A DNA stretch of 64,000 nt from positions 56,986 to 120,985 of the forward strand of contig MKSR01000027.1 of assembly GCA_001898145.1 (NCBI GenBank), in the 5' to 3' direction. Numbering within the stretch: position 1 is the first letter of the stretch; the number at the start of each line of letters is the position of its first letter. The translations under genes were made by a program, and so were the position numbers. Under the pieces are notes generated by a model that did no database searches, was not told the DNA's origin, and was given only the letters and a program-made list of their open reading frames with translations. This stretch comes from Dyadobacter sp. 50-39. GTDB lineage: Bacteria > Bacteroidota > Bacteroidia > Cytophagales > Spirosomataceae. This document shows, piece by piece, positions 49,490 through 59,457 of this stretch.

Positions 49490-50383
49490 TTAACTACCTT
49501 CAATTTCGCGCCGAATGCCGGTGACATACTGTACAGGTACTTCCAGGGCAGTTGCTATCTGCTCGTCGGTTAGCAAAGATTGCTTGATGAGATTACGTAC
49601 AGCGTTTTCGGTCTTTTGCTTCCGACCCTTCTCAACAAAAACATCTAAGGTACTCATAACTGTTGCTCTAATTTGGGTTGGTAGCGATGTGGTCAGTTCA
49701 ATGATTTGCTGCTCGCTTAGTTCACTGTTCACGAATGTATAAACAATCAGGCTGGTTTGCAAGTTCTTATCGATTTCACCGGCCAGCTTTAATATTGTAG
49801 GAATTACCTCGGTAAGGCTGTCTTTCAGCACACTATGTTTCATTGCGAGCAATGAGGCGGCCAGAAATTTGTTGTGTAGCTCCTGAATTTGCTCGTCGGG
49901 GATCGCGCCAAGATTATTAAACACGTAGTGGTAATCTGGCACAAACCGCGAGAATTCTGGTTCCAGTCCGTCAAAGAGCGACGAAAGCGTTTTGTATTCC
50001 CACCGGGCTTTTCCGTGATAGAGAAGTATCGGAATAATTAGTGATGGCTTCTCACCGTCCGCAATCTGCTTTAATAGGCCGGAGAAAATGTAGCTGCCGA
50101 TCTGGATAGGCGTGTATTTGTCCACGTAGCTTTTGTGCTCGATCAAAAGAGAAATTTTAACCTCCCCTACCCCACCGGCTCGTTTGCAGGCATAGACGAT
50201 ATCCGAGATTGACTTTTGTAGCTCCTTCGATACATACGTATCGGGGAGCTGCCGCAGGGTGGAGAAATCTAACTTTTCGAGGACGTTTGCCGGCAGACAA
50301 GCTTGGAAGTAATCCAGCGCAATTTGCCGGTTACCCATAATTGCTCGAAGAAATGTGTCGTGTTTGGAAGGATACTCAGCCAT
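49490..50383 (-). CDS. Rpn-family recombination-promoting nuclease/putative transposase
   Basis: About 297 residues from the ATG at 50383 (AEYPSKHDTFLRAIMGNRQ); a longer frame reaches 50452. KHDTFLRAIM, SDIVYACKRAG, ISLLIEHKSYVD and IPILLYHGKARWEY form the PD-(D/E)XK-type Rpn/PDDEXK_5 (YhgA-like) core, with the E-x-K nuclease signature EHKS. The C-terminus (LTDEQIATALEVPVQYVTGIRREI) contains a helix-turn-helix-like segment. Rpn proteins act in RecA-independent recombination and resemble defence nucleases. The divergently facing stray iteron at 50437 lies 54 bp upstream of its start. Confidence 0.82.
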   Translation of the reverse strand: MAEYPSKHDTFLRAIMGNRQIALDYFQACLPANVLEKLDFSTLRQLPDTYVSKELQKSISDIVYACKRAGGVGEVKISLLIEHKSYVDKYTPIQIGSYIFSGLLKQIADGEKPSLIIPILLYHGKARWEYKTLSSLFDGLEPEFSRFVPDYHYVFNNLGAIPDEQIQELHNKFLAASLLAMKHSVLKDSLTEVIPTILKLAGEIDKNLQTSLIVYTFVNSELSEQQIIELTTSLPTQIRATVMSTLDVFVEKGRKQKTENAVRNLIKQSLLTDEQIATALEVPVQYVTGIRREIEGS

Positions 50384-50436
50384 ATGACAAAGATATACAT
50401 TTTGCGATGTGGGTGATTTTCTCTTGCATATCGTGC

Positions 50437-50453
50437 TGTCGGGTATTGGCACA
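50437..50453 (+). repeat. Solitary iteron copy upstream of the Rpn gene
   Basis: TGTCGGGTATTGGCACA differs by one base from the 17-bp iteron of the origin 3.2 kb to the right. Its position just above the Rpn start suggests Rep binding could influence this gene or that it is a leftover of rearrangement. Confidence 0.6.
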
Positions 50454-50862: not shown

Positions 50863-50946
50863 AGTGCTTATTTTAGTACCTAAAAAAGTGTTTAAAATGG
50901 TGTTTTATATTATACTTAAAATGGTGTTGTTATTAGTGCTAATTAT
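50863..50946 (+). repeat. 12-bp phased direct-repeat array I (7 units)
   Basis: Seven units begin at 50863, 50875, 50887, 50899, 50911, 50923 and 50935, exactly 12 bp apart, consensus AGTGCTTAAAAT (examples AGTGCTTATTTT, AGTGTTTAAAAT, AGTGCTAATTAT). The unit at 50911 is the most diverged. Together with arrays at 51035, 51400 and 52434 this surrounds the parA/partner operon. Likely binding site for a ribbon-helix-helix centromere-binding protein. Confidence 0.75.
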
Positions 50947-51034
50947 CCACTAGGTATGGGGATGACTTGTTTCGAATCAAATATAATTCTGGCAGATCGT
51001 TGCCGCCGTCGAAGCCTTTTTGTCATTTTGAAGC

Positions 51035-51166
51035 AGTGCATTAATGAGTGCTGATTTCAGTGTTTAAATAAGTGTTATAAAATTAGCTGATTTACATGCT
51101 GAAAACAGTGTTGAGAATGATGCGACATAAAGTGCTAATTGCAGTGCTTAAATTAGTGCTTACTTT
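51035..51166 (+). repeat. 12-bp phased direct-repeat array II (11 units)
   Basis: Units begin every 12 bp from 51035 to 51155 (51035, 51047, 51059, 51071, 51083, 51095, 51107, 51119, 51131, 51143, 51155). Nine fit the AGTG[CT]T pattern or differ by one or two bases; those at 51083 and 51119 are degenerate but hold the phase. This is the longest array and the best candidate for the core centromere. Confidence 0.75.
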
Positions 51167-51399
51167 GCGCTCAGAACGTGGCGTCGCATACTGCACTTTT
51201 CATTTGATAATTCGCTCATTATCCTGGGCTCAGATAGCTTATCGAATTTGCATTTCTATGAAAGGAGGGATTGATCAGAGAATTCGAAATATGGTAAACC
51301 CGACGTTTAAGAGCTTCGGGTGATGTATAGATAGATTGTTTTGATCTGACAGATATATTTTATAACAAATTAATATACACATATTTATAAATATAAATT

Positions 51400-51471
51400 A
51401 GTGTAAATTTTAGCACTAAAAATTGCATTTGTTTTTGTGTAAAAATATGCATTAATTGCAGCACAACATCT
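51400..51471 (+). repeat. 12-bp phased array III at the parA promoter (6 units)
   Basis: Units at 51400, 51412, 51424, 51436, 51448 and 51460 keep the 12-bp phase, with both orientations of the core (AGTGTAAATTTT, AGCACTAAAAAT, TGTGTAAAAATA, AGCACAACATCT). It ends 4 bp before the parA start, so it probably doubles as the operator for autorepression. Confidence 0.6.
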
Positions 51472-51475
51472 AACA

Positions 51476-52147
51476 TTGAAATCTGTGGTTATATCTTTTA
51501 ATTCAATCAAAGGTGGGGTAGGGAAGAGTACTCTTGCTACCACGATGGCCGGATGGCTGGCTTCACATGGAAGGGACGTCCTTCTCGTCGACGGCGATGA
51601 TCAAGAAACATCATCTGACTTTACGGCCTGGCGCGAGCAAACTCTCGGAAACACTGGCTACACTTTAGTCAATATGACCGGCGCTAACCTTCGCAAGCAA
51701 GTGGAGGCCATGAAATCCAAATACGAGTTCATTATTATTGACACAGGCGGAAGGGATACTACAAGCCAGCGGGCCGCTCTTTCAGTTGCGGATGTATCCA
51801 TGATCCCGTTCGTTCCTCGTAGCTTTGATCTCTGGACAATTACAAAAGTCGTTGAACTGATCGATGAAATTCAAAGTATACGTGCTGAGCCGTTAATCGC
51901 CTACACATTTTTGAGTCGGGCTGATATCAGAAGTGCGGACAATCGAGATGTTGCTGAAGCACTGTCGCAAATCCCTCAGCTTACTTATTTGCCCTATCCT
52001 ATAAGTAATAGAAAGGCCATCAGTAATGCTGCCGGCCAAGGGTTAACTGCTTTTGAAGGAAGTAACTCAGATTTAAAAGCAATCAAGGAAATAGAGGACT
52101 TATTCAACTATGTATTAAATGTCAGCCACGCTACCACCACCGCGTAA
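51476..52147 (+). CDS. parA: Type Ib ParA partition ATPase
   Basis: A 223-residue deviant-Walker ATPase without an N-terminal DNA-binding domain, i.e. the small type Ib class. SIKGGVGKSTLATTMA is the deviant Walker A (two lysines), LLVDGDDQETSS the A-prime block, IIIDTGGRD the Walker B. The start is TTG at 51476, after an in-frame stop; GTG at 51485 is an alternative. It overlaps its partner gene by 29 bp. It is bracketed by the 12-bp repeat arrays, which are the likely parS. Drives segregation of the replicon. Confidence 0.9.
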   Translation: MKSVVISFNSIKGGVGKSTLATTMAGWLASHGRDVLLVDGDDQETSSDFTAWREQTLGNTGYTLVNMTGANLRKQVEAMKSKYEFIIIDTGGRDTTSQRAALSVADVSMIPFVPRSFDLWTITKVVELIDEIQSIRAEPLIAYTFLSRADIRSADNRDVAEALSQIPQLTYLPYPISNRKAISNAAGQGLTAFEGSNSDLKAIKEIEDLFNYVLNVSHATTTA

Positions 52148-52400
52148 GCCCAAAATTTCAGAAGCTGAAATTGACGCAGTTATAAATAAGGGAGGGAGAA
52201 CAACGAAAGAAGCGACTGTTGTTGCTGACCTTGAAACCCCTAAACATATCAACATCCGGTTAACCGGCCAAATACTTAGCGAGATAGACCAGCGTAGATC
52301 GAAACGACCGCGTAAGCCGGGATCGCCAAAGCCAGGAATAAGTATACATGACTGGATCGTTGAAGCGGTACTTGAGAAGCTTGAAAAGGAAAAAAAGTAA
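52119..52400 (+). CDS. Small centromere-binding protein, ribbon-helix-helix-like (ParG/ParB function)
   Basis: A 93-residue protein: a flexible N-terminal half (SATLPPPRKPKISEAEIDA) and a C-terminal domain with the pattern KHINIRLTGQILSEIDQRRSKR, then HDWIVEAVLEKLEKEKK. A beta-strand followed by two helices fits the ribbon-helix-helix fold of ParG/omega-type centromere-binding proteins, and the disordered N-terminus would contact ParA (as in TP228 ParG). Overlaps parA by 29 bp. Expected ligand: the 12-bp AGTGCTTA-type repeats; this link is inferred from arrangement. Confidence 0.75.
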   Translation: MSATLPPPRKPKISEAEIDAVINKGGRTTKEATVVADLETPKHINIRLTGQILSEIDQRRSKRPRKPGSPKPGISIHDWIVEAVLEKLEKEKK

Positions 52401-52433
52401 CGTTGTTTGCCGAAGTATCTTCCTCTGATAAAC

Positions 52434-52481
52434 AGTGCTATTAAAAGTGCTTATTATAGTGCTAAAAATAGCACTATATAT
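52434..52481 (+). repeat. 12-bp phased array IV between the partition operon and rep (4 units)
   Basis: AGTGCTATTAAA, AGTGCTTATTAT, AGTGCTAAAAAT and AGCACTATATAT at 52434, 52446, 52458 and 52470. It lies 33 bp after the partner gene stop and about 93 bp before the rep start, so binding here could regulate rep as well as serve partition. Confidence 0.7.
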
Positions 52482-52574
52482 TTTGCATAAAGATATTTAA
52501 GTGAGCTAGTTATGTAGTATTCGGCATTCCTATCCCTGTAAGATAGAATATGTTTGAATTTAACCGGACAGCAG

Positions 52575-53681
52575 ATGATAAATGAGAATGAGGGTTCAAA
52601 AGGCGAGTTTTTTGTTAGTAGGATAGATAGGAGTGTTGCTGACAATCTGAATGATATCAGAACGTCGTTCGGTGATGACGCGGGAGTCGTTAAAGACTTT
52701 ATCGTGTTTGTTAGTAAAAACATGAAGCGAGATTTGTTCGGATATACAAAGTTTACACTTCAGGATTTCTGCAAAGAAACCGGCCGCAATCGCCAGGACC
52801 TTGCCAAGAGGCACCCATATTTTGTTAGTAATCCGAAAGCAGTTGTTCCCGAATATCACGGGCATCAGTTTGTTTCTGTTTTCGACTATTCACTGTTCCT
52901 GATGCTTCAGCGGAACATCATATTTGCGAAAACTTACACTGTCAATACTAAGGATGAGGTGATTCAGCTGGAGAACTTTCCAATCTTAAAGGACATCAAG
53001 CTGAACATGGATCGTGCTTCCAATACCGTTAAAATTTACGAGATAAGAATCTCTGATCAATGGATGGATGGATTCATTAGTAGATACTATACGGTAGAAA
53101 CAAATGGTTATCGGATGATTGGCAAGGGTAGAGGAGGGGATGGAAGAAAGAGTTTATACCTAATCTTACAACGTACACGACATCAATGCCTTTCACAAAA
53201 TCAGACAATAGCCAGATTTTCTGTTGATTACCTAGCACATCTGGCTGAGGTTGATGTTGAGGAAAACAGATTTCGGAAACGGGCAGTTAAGAGAATGCTC
53301 GATCTGTTTTTGCAGAAAGATGCAATGCCTTTCAGTTATCGCTTTGTAAAAGCAGATCGAGCTAAGGTTAACCAGGAGGAATATTGGGTGGAAATAAATT
53401 TTGCTCCCAGTAGTCAAACACCTCCTGTGGCCGAGGAGCACGGTGATCACGTATTTTTTAATTCTTTGGTGAGGGACTTGAAGAAGAGGTTTAAGTTAAT
53501 GTACTCTGATGTAGTTATTGAAGACGAAAAGGATCATTTTCAGCGCTGGCTTACCAATCACAAGGTGGACCTTGATGTAAAAGTTGATGTTTTAATAGCA
53601 GCATATAACAAGGCATATAGTGCGCAAATGACCAAGATACAGGCAAAGCAATACATAAGACAAGGAGGCTTGATTTCCTGA
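52575..53681 (+). CDS. rep: Plasmid replication initiator (RepA/RepB-like)
   Basis: About 368 residues from the ATG at 52575 (MINENEGSKGEFF); a TTG at 52554 would add seven. Two winged-helix regions are suggested (KFTLQDFCKETGRNRQDLAKRH near residue 65, and ARFSVDYLAHLAEVDVEENRFRKRAVKRMLDLF, shortened to the FRKRAVKRMLDLF part, near 220), as in iteron-binding initiators. Immediately downstream is the 13-copy iteron array, its presumed binding site. Initiates replication at the adjacent origin. Confidence 0.8.
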   Translation: MINENEGSKGEFFVSRIDRSVADNLNDIRTSFGDDAGVVKDFIVFVSKNMKRDLFGYTKFTLQDFCKETGRNRQDLAKRHPYFVSNPKAVVPEYHGHQFVSVFDYSLFLMLQRNIIFAKTYTVNTKDEVIQLENFPILKDIKLNMDRASNTVKIYEIRISDQWMDGFISRYYTVETNGYRMIGKGRGGDGRKSLYLILQRTRHQCLSQNQTIARFSVDYLAHLAEVDVEENRFRKRAVKRMLDLFLQKDAMPFSYRFVKADRAKVNQEEYWVEINFAPSSQTPPVAEEHGDHVFFNSLVRDLKKRFKLMYSDVVIEDEKDHFQRWLTNHKVDLDVKVDVLIAAYNKAYSAQMTKIQAKQYIRQGGLIS

Positions 53682-53686
53682 CTTGG

Positions 53687-54306
53687 TGTCGAGTTTTGGC
53701 ACATGGATTGAAGGCCTTTGAAACGGATTATAATGTTGGTGTCGAATTTTGGCACAAATCGTGCTTAATGCATGTGCGAGTATGTGCGCATAAGTGGCTG
53801 ATTTTCATAAATATATTTACATATAAAATCGTAACCCAGAAAAGAACTATTGCTGTCAACTCATTTAACAGTGATAGCTGTCGAATATTGGCACATTTGC
53901 AAATAATCACTAGTGATAAAAACCTGGCTGTCGAGTTCTGGCACATCTCTGTACTTATTTGCAGCGAAAAGAGATCTCGATTGAAGAGCGGACAACCAGC
54001 TCGGCTAGCTAAATAATATGGCTGAATGTCGAGTATTGGCACGCTGCAGTCGAGTAGTGTCACGGTCGCGTGGATAAATTGCAATTTGTTGTCGAGTATC
54101 GGCACAAATCTTGTGGATAACGAGACGATACCTGTCGAGTATTGGCACGACCTGTCGAGTATTGGCACGTAGCTGTCGAGTAGTTGCCCGAGTCGTGTGG
54201 AAAGGGTTGTCTACGTTGTCGAATATAAACACACTTGTCGAGTATTGGCACAATAAATATTGCCGCTGGACCCGTCCAGGCTACTTTGCTGTCGAGTATT
54301 GGCACT
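53687..54306 (+). repeat. Iteron array, 13 copies of a 17-bp repeat (oriV)
   Basis: Consensus TGTCGAGTATTGGCACA. Copies start at 53687, 53740, 53879, 53929, 54027, 54048, 54090, 54133, 54153, 54174, 54217, 54236 and 54290. Five or six are identical in the core; 54048, 54174 and 54217 are the most diverged. In the dense part the spacing is about 21 bp or multiples (two helical turns). Two DnaA boxes and an AT-rich tract accompany it. This is a Rep-iteron origin with more than the usual number of iterons; the upstream copies may act in copy-number control by handcuffing. The reverse frames covering this region are repeat artefacts. Confidence 0.85.
54069..54120 (-). promoter_or_regulatory. Two DnaA boxes within the iteron array
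   Basis: TTATCCACA (reverse strand of 54112-54120) is a perfect DnaA box, and TTATCCACG (54069-54077) has one mismatch. They flank the iteron at 54090, as expected of an iteron origin that recruits host DnaA. Confidence 0.7.
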
Positions 54307-54338
54307 AATTATATAATAAAAAATAAAAAATAATATAT
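54307..54338. other. AT-rich tract after the last iteron (candidate duplex-unwinding element)
   Basis: About 32 bp made almost entirely of A and T directly after the last iteron, the typical position of the DNA-unwinding element at an iteron origin. Confidence 0.6.
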
Positions 54339-56634: not shown

Positions 56635-57341
56635 CAGCCGATAATTTCCTGAATCTCTTCTTGCTTCTTACGATACATGATCTTTGACATCAACCCCAAG
56701 CTGGCCGGGTCCGGTTGCGGCTGGGAGATCAAATCGATGATATCTTTTACCGCCCCTCCTGAGCCCAGGTCGCCAAATTGTTTTAGCTCTATACCCAGCT
56801 CCTTTAATTTGCCGACTGCTTTTTCAGCTGTTTCTATCCCGCCAAAGGTTCCCATATTGACCAGCATTGTGAGCGGGAACTGTCCGGCAAGCGCTGTCAT
56901 CAATGCGTTGTAATAATTGACACAGGAGGCGAGTGCATCACGGCCGGCCACTATAACAAATACGCGGAGCGTGATCCCGAGTGCAGCAAGCTCCTGCTGC
57001 AAGATATCTGCCGGCACATCGTGCTGTAAAAGATGCAGAAATTCGGCTGATTCAGGAGCGCCAAAATCGATATAATATTTATCGGATTTTCCGCCAGCAA
57101 GACCTTCAAAAAGCTCGACGATCTTTTCGCGTTCCAGCTTCTTGTACTCGTTGAGTATCTTAAAACTCCGGACGCGCTGATCACCTACGACGGTCCCAAG
57201 ACGGGCAACCGAAGTCTGAGTAGACTCGTCCAGGTCGATAAAATTTGTTTTTTCTTCTTTTTGGTTCTGTGCAACAAACCAGATGAAAAGAGATTTTCCA
57301 ACCCCTCCCTTTGACTGTAAAACCAGGTTAACCTGCTTCAT
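56634..57341 (-). CDS. ParA-like ATPase of the mobilisation cluster
   Basis: A 235-residue deviant-Walker ATPase (LQSKGGVGKSLFIWF; the following DLDES and YYIDFGAPES are the A-prime and Walker B equivalents). It differs from the type Ib ParA at 51476 and is grouped with a membrane protein and mobilisation genes, resembling the ParA-like/VirC1-type proteins of conjugative elements. Likely role: positioning the transfer complex or aiding mobilisation. Overlaps the TM-protein gene by one base. Confidence 0.8.
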   Translation of the reverse strand: MKQVNLVLQSKGGVGKSLFIWFVAQNQKEEKTNFIDLDESTQTSVARLGTVVGDQRVRSFKILNEYKKLEREKIVELFEGLAGGKSDKYYIDFGAPESAEFLHLLQHDVPADILQQELAALGITLRVFVIVAGRDALASCVNYYNALMTALAGQFPLTMLVNMGTFGGIETAEKAVGKLKELGIELKQFGDLGSGGAVKDIIDLISQPQPDPASLGLMSKIMYRKKQEEIQEIIG

Positions 57342-59182: not shown

Positions 59183-59436
59183 TGTAAGCTGATTATAAGC
59201 CTATTTGTGTAGCCGGAGATAAGCTTTTATTTATTGACGAAAAGGGTCATCAAACGAATTTTAGAAAGACGAGGACTGATTTTTTGGGTCGAAGGGAATA
59301 TGAAAAGTACAAATTTTTTTTCACCGGGAACTGATGAAAAATAGAACAAAACCGAGTAAATCAGGGTTCATTCGCATAATGGGTTTTATGTTAAAGAAGG
59401 AGACACGACGCAAGAGCGGAATCAAAATATTTATAG
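59183..59436. other. Short AT-rich spacer after the relaxase gene
   Basis: About 250 bp with no gene; ends in the 21-bp repeat copy 2. No terminator-like hairpin found. Confidence 0.4.
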
Positions 59437-59457
59437 AACTTAAAAAAGTACAACAAT
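59437..59457 (+). repeat. 21-bp repeat (copy 2) at the start of the small membrane gene
   Basis: Second copy of the 58348-58368 repeat (one mismatch), reaching into the ATG at 59456. Confidence 0.65.

Follow-up and report, generated by a model that had tools for sequence, protein, structure and literature searches.

In the plasmid pSM19035, parS is split into three sites that hold 9, 7 and 10 iterons; the sites are present twice and overlap the delta, omega and copS promoters (PMC5016525), and at least four contiguous repeats are required for full activity (PMC9499535). TP228 has parH plus OF (PMC5016525), constructs of pB171 are written parC1, parA, parB, parC2 (PMC4270457) and for ParR repeats of 10, 11, 17 and 20 bp are named (PMC9426499). 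In a stretch of 64,000 nucleotides from Dyadobacter sp. 50-39 (contig MKSR01000027.1 of 120,985 bases, positions 56,986 to 120,985; hereafter the window) four arrays of 12-bp units surround a small parA gene and the gene for a 93-residue partner. On comparative sequence evidence these arrays very probably serve a type Ib-like ParA system as its multi-site centromere and operator, read by the partner. Arrays built on the same 12-bp plan stand beside the operon in most members of the family, and the core of the repeat goes with the domain of the partner while the N-terminal tail of the partner goes with ParA.

The original prediction, made from the letters of the window, had described 28 units in four arrays and this is borne out in position as well as in number (7 + 11 + 6 + 4 units in 12-base steps; Table 1). 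The unit combines a near-palindromic hexamer (AGTGCT or AGCACT, consensus AGYRCT) with a 6-bp AT-rich linker, and because the core hexamer is near-palindromic AGTGCT and AGCACT units share one phase. The proposed phase locking holds inside each array and not between arrays, with 100 bp from 50935 to 51035. At lag 12 the match fraction was 0.54 against 0.33 expected for array I, 0.47 against 0.27 for array II (extended to 51178) and 0.56 against 0.30 for array IV (extended to 52493), in each case with 0 of 1000 dinucleotide shuffles as high and with p values of 0.015, 0.00 and 0.045, respectively, when any lag was allowed (200 shuffles). The lag-12 autocorrelation suggested as a check on the prediction therefore exceeds the shuffles in these three arrays, array III being weak when taken alone. 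A cyclic hidden Markov model (HMM) of 12 states fitted to the window flanks scored 129 against a maximum of 36 in 19 shuffles, gave a posterior of 1.00 to all six units of array III, which is conserved in an alignment of eight close relatives, and proposed the weaker edge units listed in Table 1. Scanned across the whole window the HMM found nothing but the same four arrays on the minus strand, and on the plus strand the four arrays plus a single weak run of 22-23 bp at 59431-59453. Genome-wide, the pattern AGYRCT-N6-AGYRCT gave 10 forward matches (five inside the arrays, the rest single) versus nine for the reversed control.

Homologues of the partner were found in 44 of the 200 genomes of the family searched and 48 of the 390 genomes of the order searched, with a class-wide draw of 395 genomes giving two carriers, the source genome and one of the same family. 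Among the carriers with a name are complete plasmids from Dyadobacter chenhuakuii, Spirosoma oryzicola and Spirosoma linguale. Flanks were analysed for 43 first systems and 39 further loci, and in both sets the partner always lies directly downstream of ParA. For L098, L150 and L165 a search of the same strand over 700 bp gave no ParA; in L098 the partner gene lies 92 bases into a contig from a metagenome bin labelled Moraxellaceae, ParA being absent from that piece, which may reflect transfer or misbinning. Pooled over 42 systems, z at lag 12 reached 21.8 over the 200 bp ahead of parA and 13.0 over the 120 bp that follow the partner gene, with lags 24, 36 and 48 following lag 12 and lags 11 and 13 flat, while the parA coding control gave z 2.4 at lag 12 and peaks of its own at 9, 15 and 18. 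System by system, the period-12 HMM beat all 19 shuffles in 42/43 first systems and all nine shuffles in 36/39 further loci (34/37 minus two that repeat earlier places).

Units and runs (a run being at least 24 bp) were counted in 72 systems with models fitted on those very sequences. Left out before the count were L067, which is almost the same as L068; L093 and L094, which come from the loci of L053 and L055; L060, which did not exceed its shuffles; L160 and L164, which did not exceed nine shuffles; L166, which tied once values were rounded; L153 and L161, which were only just above and gave no clear 12; and L152, which was above but has a GC-rich motif unlike the others. An upstream array is present in 72/72 systems, two or more separate upstream arrays in 44 and a downstream array in 60, with a median of 17.6 units per system and up to 45. 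Where the gap between parA and the partner is at least 50 bp, it holds an array run in 24 of 27 systems. Four Deinococcus plasmids (L167-L170) encode a ParA 52-54% identical to that of the window and over the 200 bp ahead of parA have only short rows, each of two or three AACGTT-like hexamers at 12-bp spacing, judged by eye, which are possibly a minimal form of the array.

Some individual members of the family merit mention. A 27.8-kb contig of the source genome (G000:C4), perhaps a second plasmid, carries a second ParA-partner system (L042) with its own 12-bp arrays and the core AATGTA. Genome G069 holds seven family systems on separate contigs (L053, L055, L057, L061, L062, L148 and L159), the cores being mostly different. 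In Spirosoma endophyticum (L059) a near-perfect tandem ATCTAATTATAC, roughly 340-245 bp before parA, is suggestive of recent unit duplication.

Hexamer models fitted independently of the proteins gave cores that vary across systems, with AGYRCT in the window and AACGTT, AGATCT, ACACCT and AATATT among the others. The partner strand KHIN(I/V/T)RLT goes with AGYRCT, KSIKLIMT and KSIKLIVK with AACGTT in 12/12, KFFNLRLT with AGATCT, ACATCT or AAATCT in 3/3 and KNFNIK with ACACCT or its relatives, with AATATT occurring beside several other strands; single systems break their groups, among them L052 (HNR; HFNIR, TGTCCT) and L057 (FNR; FFNVR, AATACT). Among pairs at 45-60% distance outside the strand the mean motif distance was 0.047 when the three strand residues were the same (65 pairs) and 0.161 when at least two of them differed (766 pairs). 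With ParA and tail held, the partial correlation of motif distance with domain distance was 0.21, a value that 0 of 999 permutations reached, compared to 0.07 for ParA distance and 0.00 for tail distance, and with the domain held tail distance correlated with ParA distance at r 0.50. Across 49 related queries, which are not independent, the motif was nearer to that of the domain-nearer partner in 38 and the tail nearer to that of the ParA-nearer one in 34. The simplest reading is that the domain of the partner binds the arrays and the N-tail serves ParA.

Since pairs alike in their strand residues also share ancestry, cases were sought in which the ancestry of the parts disagrees, and two groups were found. 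In the window's own group of ten, ParA and tail are 0.76 and 0.62 identical to FNR and 0.59 and 0.43 to HNR-2, whereas the domain is 0.69 identical to HNR-2 versus 0.52 to FNR, with a motif distance of 0.033 to HNR-2 versus 0.244 to FNR. The SKI-1 group comprises six systems, five in genomes of the window's genus and one in a named Dyadobacter. Its identity to HNR is 0.72 for ParA, 0.49 for the tail and 0.40 for the domain, while its identity to SKI-2 (Larkinella, Spirosoma, Runella and one further genome) is 0.52, 0.37 and 0.79, and its AACGTT arrays stand at a motif distance of 0.026 from SKI-2 versus 0.109 from HNR. Recombination inside the partner gene would account for both mixed groups. 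The arrays are thus probably the binding sites of the partner, as centromere and operator, because the core tracks the domain of the partner and not ParA, these two groups of mixed lineage included. Together with the presence of arrays in most of the family, this tracking lends support to the likely centromere of the original prediction.

A broader proposal, held with slightly less than even confidence, is that ParA with the N-tail and the domain with its 12-bp arrays may form two exchangeable modules. These would have been swapped at least twice by recombination in the partner gene, including in the window's group, to give a new centromere address with the motor kept, and a short beta-strand with a partly readable code (HNR AGYRCT, FNR AGATCT, NNK ACACCT, SKI AACGTT) would separate co-resident plasmids. 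The fifth strand position is R or K with G/C at hexamer positions 2/5 in 49/54 systems, other residues going with A in 17/18. A strict three-residue code was rejected and is kept as a suggestion, there being few changes on the tree (four in residue, seven in base pair), with the column scan described below favouring I44, and with L052, L057 and the Deinococcus relatives, whose strand is KNVQLRL and whose sites look AACGTT-like by eye, weakening it. For strand residue 44 against hexamer position 3, the tree test gave seven pairs, of which on average 2.5 agree, 0.6 oppose and 3.9 show no difference. Co-resident systems had close cores in 1/32 pairs versus 5.7 expected, with 82 of 5000 permutations as low and a shared triplet in 1/32; 21 of the 32 pairs come from G069 alone and L067 was here represented by the near-identical L068, such that avoidance of the same core by co-resident systems is suggestive only.

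Table 1. Arrays, genes and other features around the candidate partition operon, in window coordinates
Feature	Position	Strand	Description
Array I	50863..50946	+	7 units of 12 bp; putative distal upstream centromere array; weak additional unit 50851
Array II	51035..51166	+	11 units of 12 bp; putative main upstream centromere array
Array III	51400..51471	+	6 units of 12 bp; weaker further units 51388, 51472, 51484; both core orientations
Promoter-like pair	51428-51431 (TTTG) and 51453-51458 (TAATTG)	+	21-nt gap; inside array III; stretch conserved in relatives
parA	51485..52147	+	small Walker-box ParA ATPase, KGGVGKST; longer open reading frame from TTG 51476
parB-like partner	52119..52400	+	93 residues; N-tail about 1-41, then strand-helix-helix-like domain; overlaps 3′ end of parA
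Array IV	52434..52481	+	4 units of 12 bp; weaker fifth unit 52482; separates partner gene from rep-like open reading frame
rep-like open reading frame	52554..53681	+	neighbour, outside the partition operon
21-nt TGTCGARTATTGGCACA-type repeat	53687..54310	+	11 copies; 3′ of the rep-like open reading frame; unlike the 12-bp arrays

ParA of the window is 220-223 residues long with KGGVGKST close to the N-terminus, matching AAA_31/CbiA and NF041546 (E 2.9e-45, 154 bits, under that model's 180-bit cut-off), and no helix-turn-helix (HTH) domain was present among its Pfam and NCBIfam matches, in keeping with the small type Ib parA that had been predicted. Its best sequence matches among solved structures are the ParA 5u1g, presumably that of a pNOB8-type system, and then TP228 ParF 4dzz. 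The likely start is the GTG at 51485, which is also where the annotated gene of the D. chenhuakuii relative begins, and the repeats extend into this start region, as foreseen in the claim that array III touches the parA start. Promoters of the Bacteroidota follow the consensus TTTG / TAnnTTTG, which the TTTG / TAATTG pair inside array III resembles, and the pair is a putative promoter; array III is probably an operator besides a centromere.

In the AlphaFold model of the partner (mean pLDDT, the predicted local distance difference test, 67) a strand-like stretch KHINIRLT at 42-49 is followed by helices at 50-61 and 76-92, while the N-terminal part, of low model confidence, has a predicted helix at 15-23 and a conserved I-N-K/R-G motif. 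This layout is like that of ribbon-helix-helix (RHH) proteins, as the original prediction had it, and an RHH fold is likely rather than proven, since RHH_1 is matched by some members of the alignment (see below) and the model places two helices after the strand-like stretch.

The rep-like open reading frame (ORF) had no Pfam match at E up to 1 and is related to sequences in 45 plasmid records of Bacteroidota, Bacteroides and Parabacteroides among them, 10 of the 45 over at least 80% of the length. Its AlphaFold model (mean pLDDT 51) has low-confidence helix-strand-strand patterns like those of winged-helix initiators. The ORF is a candidate replication initiator, and the TGTCGARTATTGGCACA-type repeats are probable replication iterons or an origin. 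Adjoining array I on the minus strand (49490-50452) is a Transposase_31 (YhgA-like) ORF. An exact overlap between the ends of contig C27, as would point to a circular molecule, was looked for and none was found.

In the proposed mechanism the 93-residue partner would form RHH dimers, the paired beta-strands of each dimer reading one near-palindromic AGYRCT hexamer per 12-bp unit, with each array nucleating a phased row of partner dimers on the DNA. By analogy with TP228 and pSM19035 the flexible N-tail would touch ParA and stimulate ATP hydrolysis, and the plasmid would follow ParA across the nucleoid. Array III, lying over the promoter-like pair before parA, would render the operon self-repressing, which is likely because the pair so covered is conserved. 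Array IV may possibly also control rep, its position being no evidence of this.

A number of observations weigh against a centromere read in this way. Array III alone scarcely beats chance (match fraction 0.40 versus 0.295, p = 0.049; any-lag p = 0.89), one of the 43 first systems (L060) failed the shuffle test and five of the most distant Cytophagales systems have no clear 12-bp array; L160 and L166, also among the most distant, have a hint of an 11/22-bp period (z 3.9 at lag 22 in L160; 4.8 at 22 and 3.2 at 11 in L166). The exclusion of outgroup systems from the set of 72 tilts its counts toward the favoured reading. Segments further out also have a lag-12 excess, with z from 6.2 to 9.0. There it comes along with the remaining multiples of three, the pattern of coding DNA, but at 200-700 bp upstream the leading lags are 12 and its multiples. 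Likewise, the fitted models give 44 runs of 36 bp or longer beyond the par flanks versus 204 inside; 25 of the 44 lie in parA-partner gaps, nine are in close relatives at a greater distance upstream and the other 10 are elsewhere. The window partner has no meaningful Pfam match, no NCBIfam family and no PDB sequence match, RHH_1 was found at E ≤ 0.1 in just 6 of the 41 alignment members (best 4.7e-4), the window protein not among them, and of eight members rescanned one matched RHH_1 at E 0.16, below cut-off. A Foldseek search of the partner monomer against the PDB gave four matches at E ≤ 10 and none at E ≤ 0.001. When the alignment columns were scanned one by one, the three residues of the strand that should face DNA rank 10, 30 and 18 of 84, a strand residue between them, I44, ranking first, and the independent-pairs tree test of strand residue against core is small, with five pairs of which about two agree, none opposes and three show no difference. 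Unequal rates could also partly mimic the case of the window's group.

The arrays might instead be operators only, for parA-parB autoregulation and perhaps rep, with the centromere elsewhere or confined to one array. The covering of the promoter-like pair by array III and the operator-like look of the short hexamer rows before parA in Deinococcus would both fit this, but the number of units per system and the several upstream arrays in 44/72 go beyond the needs of a promoter switch, and in L043, L044, L046, L048 and L049 runs lie more than 800 bp upstream of parA, leaving this explanation unlikely. The units could also be replication iterons read by the neighbouring initiator, in view of array IV adjoining the rep-like ORF and of the frequency of iterons at plasmid origins. 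However, a downstream array is present in 26/31 systems where a rep-like ORF follows directly and in 34/41 where none does, the rep-like ORF has 11 repeats of its own of a different sequence and the 12-bp core tracks the partner domain, all of which make iterons very improbable. The same counts undercut the suggestion in the original prediction that array IV implies coupled control of replication, since a downstream array is equally common with and without the ORF.

That ParA itself binds the arrays is suggested by their adjoining parA, yet with its lack of an HTH domain among the matches above and the partial correlation of the core with ParA of only 0.07, given domain and tail, the prospect is smaller again. 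Least credible is chance periodicity, or phased A-tracts in AT-rich DNA with no dedicated reader: the region and the linker are indeed AT-rich and array III alone is near chance, but neither dinucleotide shuffles nor the parA coding control reproduce the lag-12 signal, the period is 12 rather than the helical 10-11 and in the window model the information lies in the hexamer and not in the A-rich linker. A centromere and operator read by the partner hence remains the favoured account of the arrays.

In the literature searched, with subscription papers mostly outside the search, no description of this Cytophagales family or of its 12-bp arrays was present among the matches listed. As far as seen, what is new is the 12-bp class in Cytophagales, the constant geometry with a changing core and the travelling together of reader domain and array. 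The family offers dozens of natural pairings between a centromere and its reader, with fixed 12-bp geometry, changing cores and two apparent natural domain shuffles, by which the evolution of centromere-binding specificity and the founding of new compatibility groups become directly testable.

The arrays are real and widespread and are not unprecedented in size or split layout, the claim that they exceed characterised type Ib systems in these respects not being borne out, given the parS sites of 9, 7 and 10 iterons in pSM19035. Every array in the window has at least the four units of the pSM19035 minimum, and as in delta/omega there is a small ParA, an RHH centromere-binding protein (here likely) and several separate arrays overlapping promoters (here a putative one), with units in mixed orientation (PMC5016525; PMC9499535). 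In contrast to the 7-bp heptads of pSM19035 the units here are of 12 bp, a 6-bp core with a 6-bp linker, and lag 7 is not among the leading lags, such that the omega/parS heptad is not seen. The pSM19035 genes have separate promoters whereas parA and partner overlap in the window, and unlike omega the partner family has no sequence match among solved chains.

TP228 parFGH has in common with the window a small ParA, with ParF the second-best structure match, and an RHH-like partner with a flexible tail (here predicted); unlike TP228, the window family has arrays downstream, between parA and partner and far upstream as well. The ParG boxes of TP228 differ from the window units in unit length and core. 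As in pB171 par2, known here by the construct notation only, there are cis sites either side of the operon, the par2 repeat differing in sequence and length from that of the window. Direct-repeat arrays also form the centromeres of ParMRC and TubZRC, with ParR an RHH reader and TubR sites of about 12 bp, but unlike these type II and type III systems the motor in the window is a Walker ParA and not actin- or tubulin-like. The closest named relative is the plasmid NZ_CP099631.1 of D. chenhuakuii CY22, with ParA 88.7%, the partner 73.8% and the rep-like ORF 70% identical, the same gene order and AGYRCT arrays (read on G135:C2). Its protein-gene table gives an AAA family ATPase and hypothetical proteins, and it is beside genes recorded as hypothetical protein that Cytophagales plasmids gain a likely centromere.

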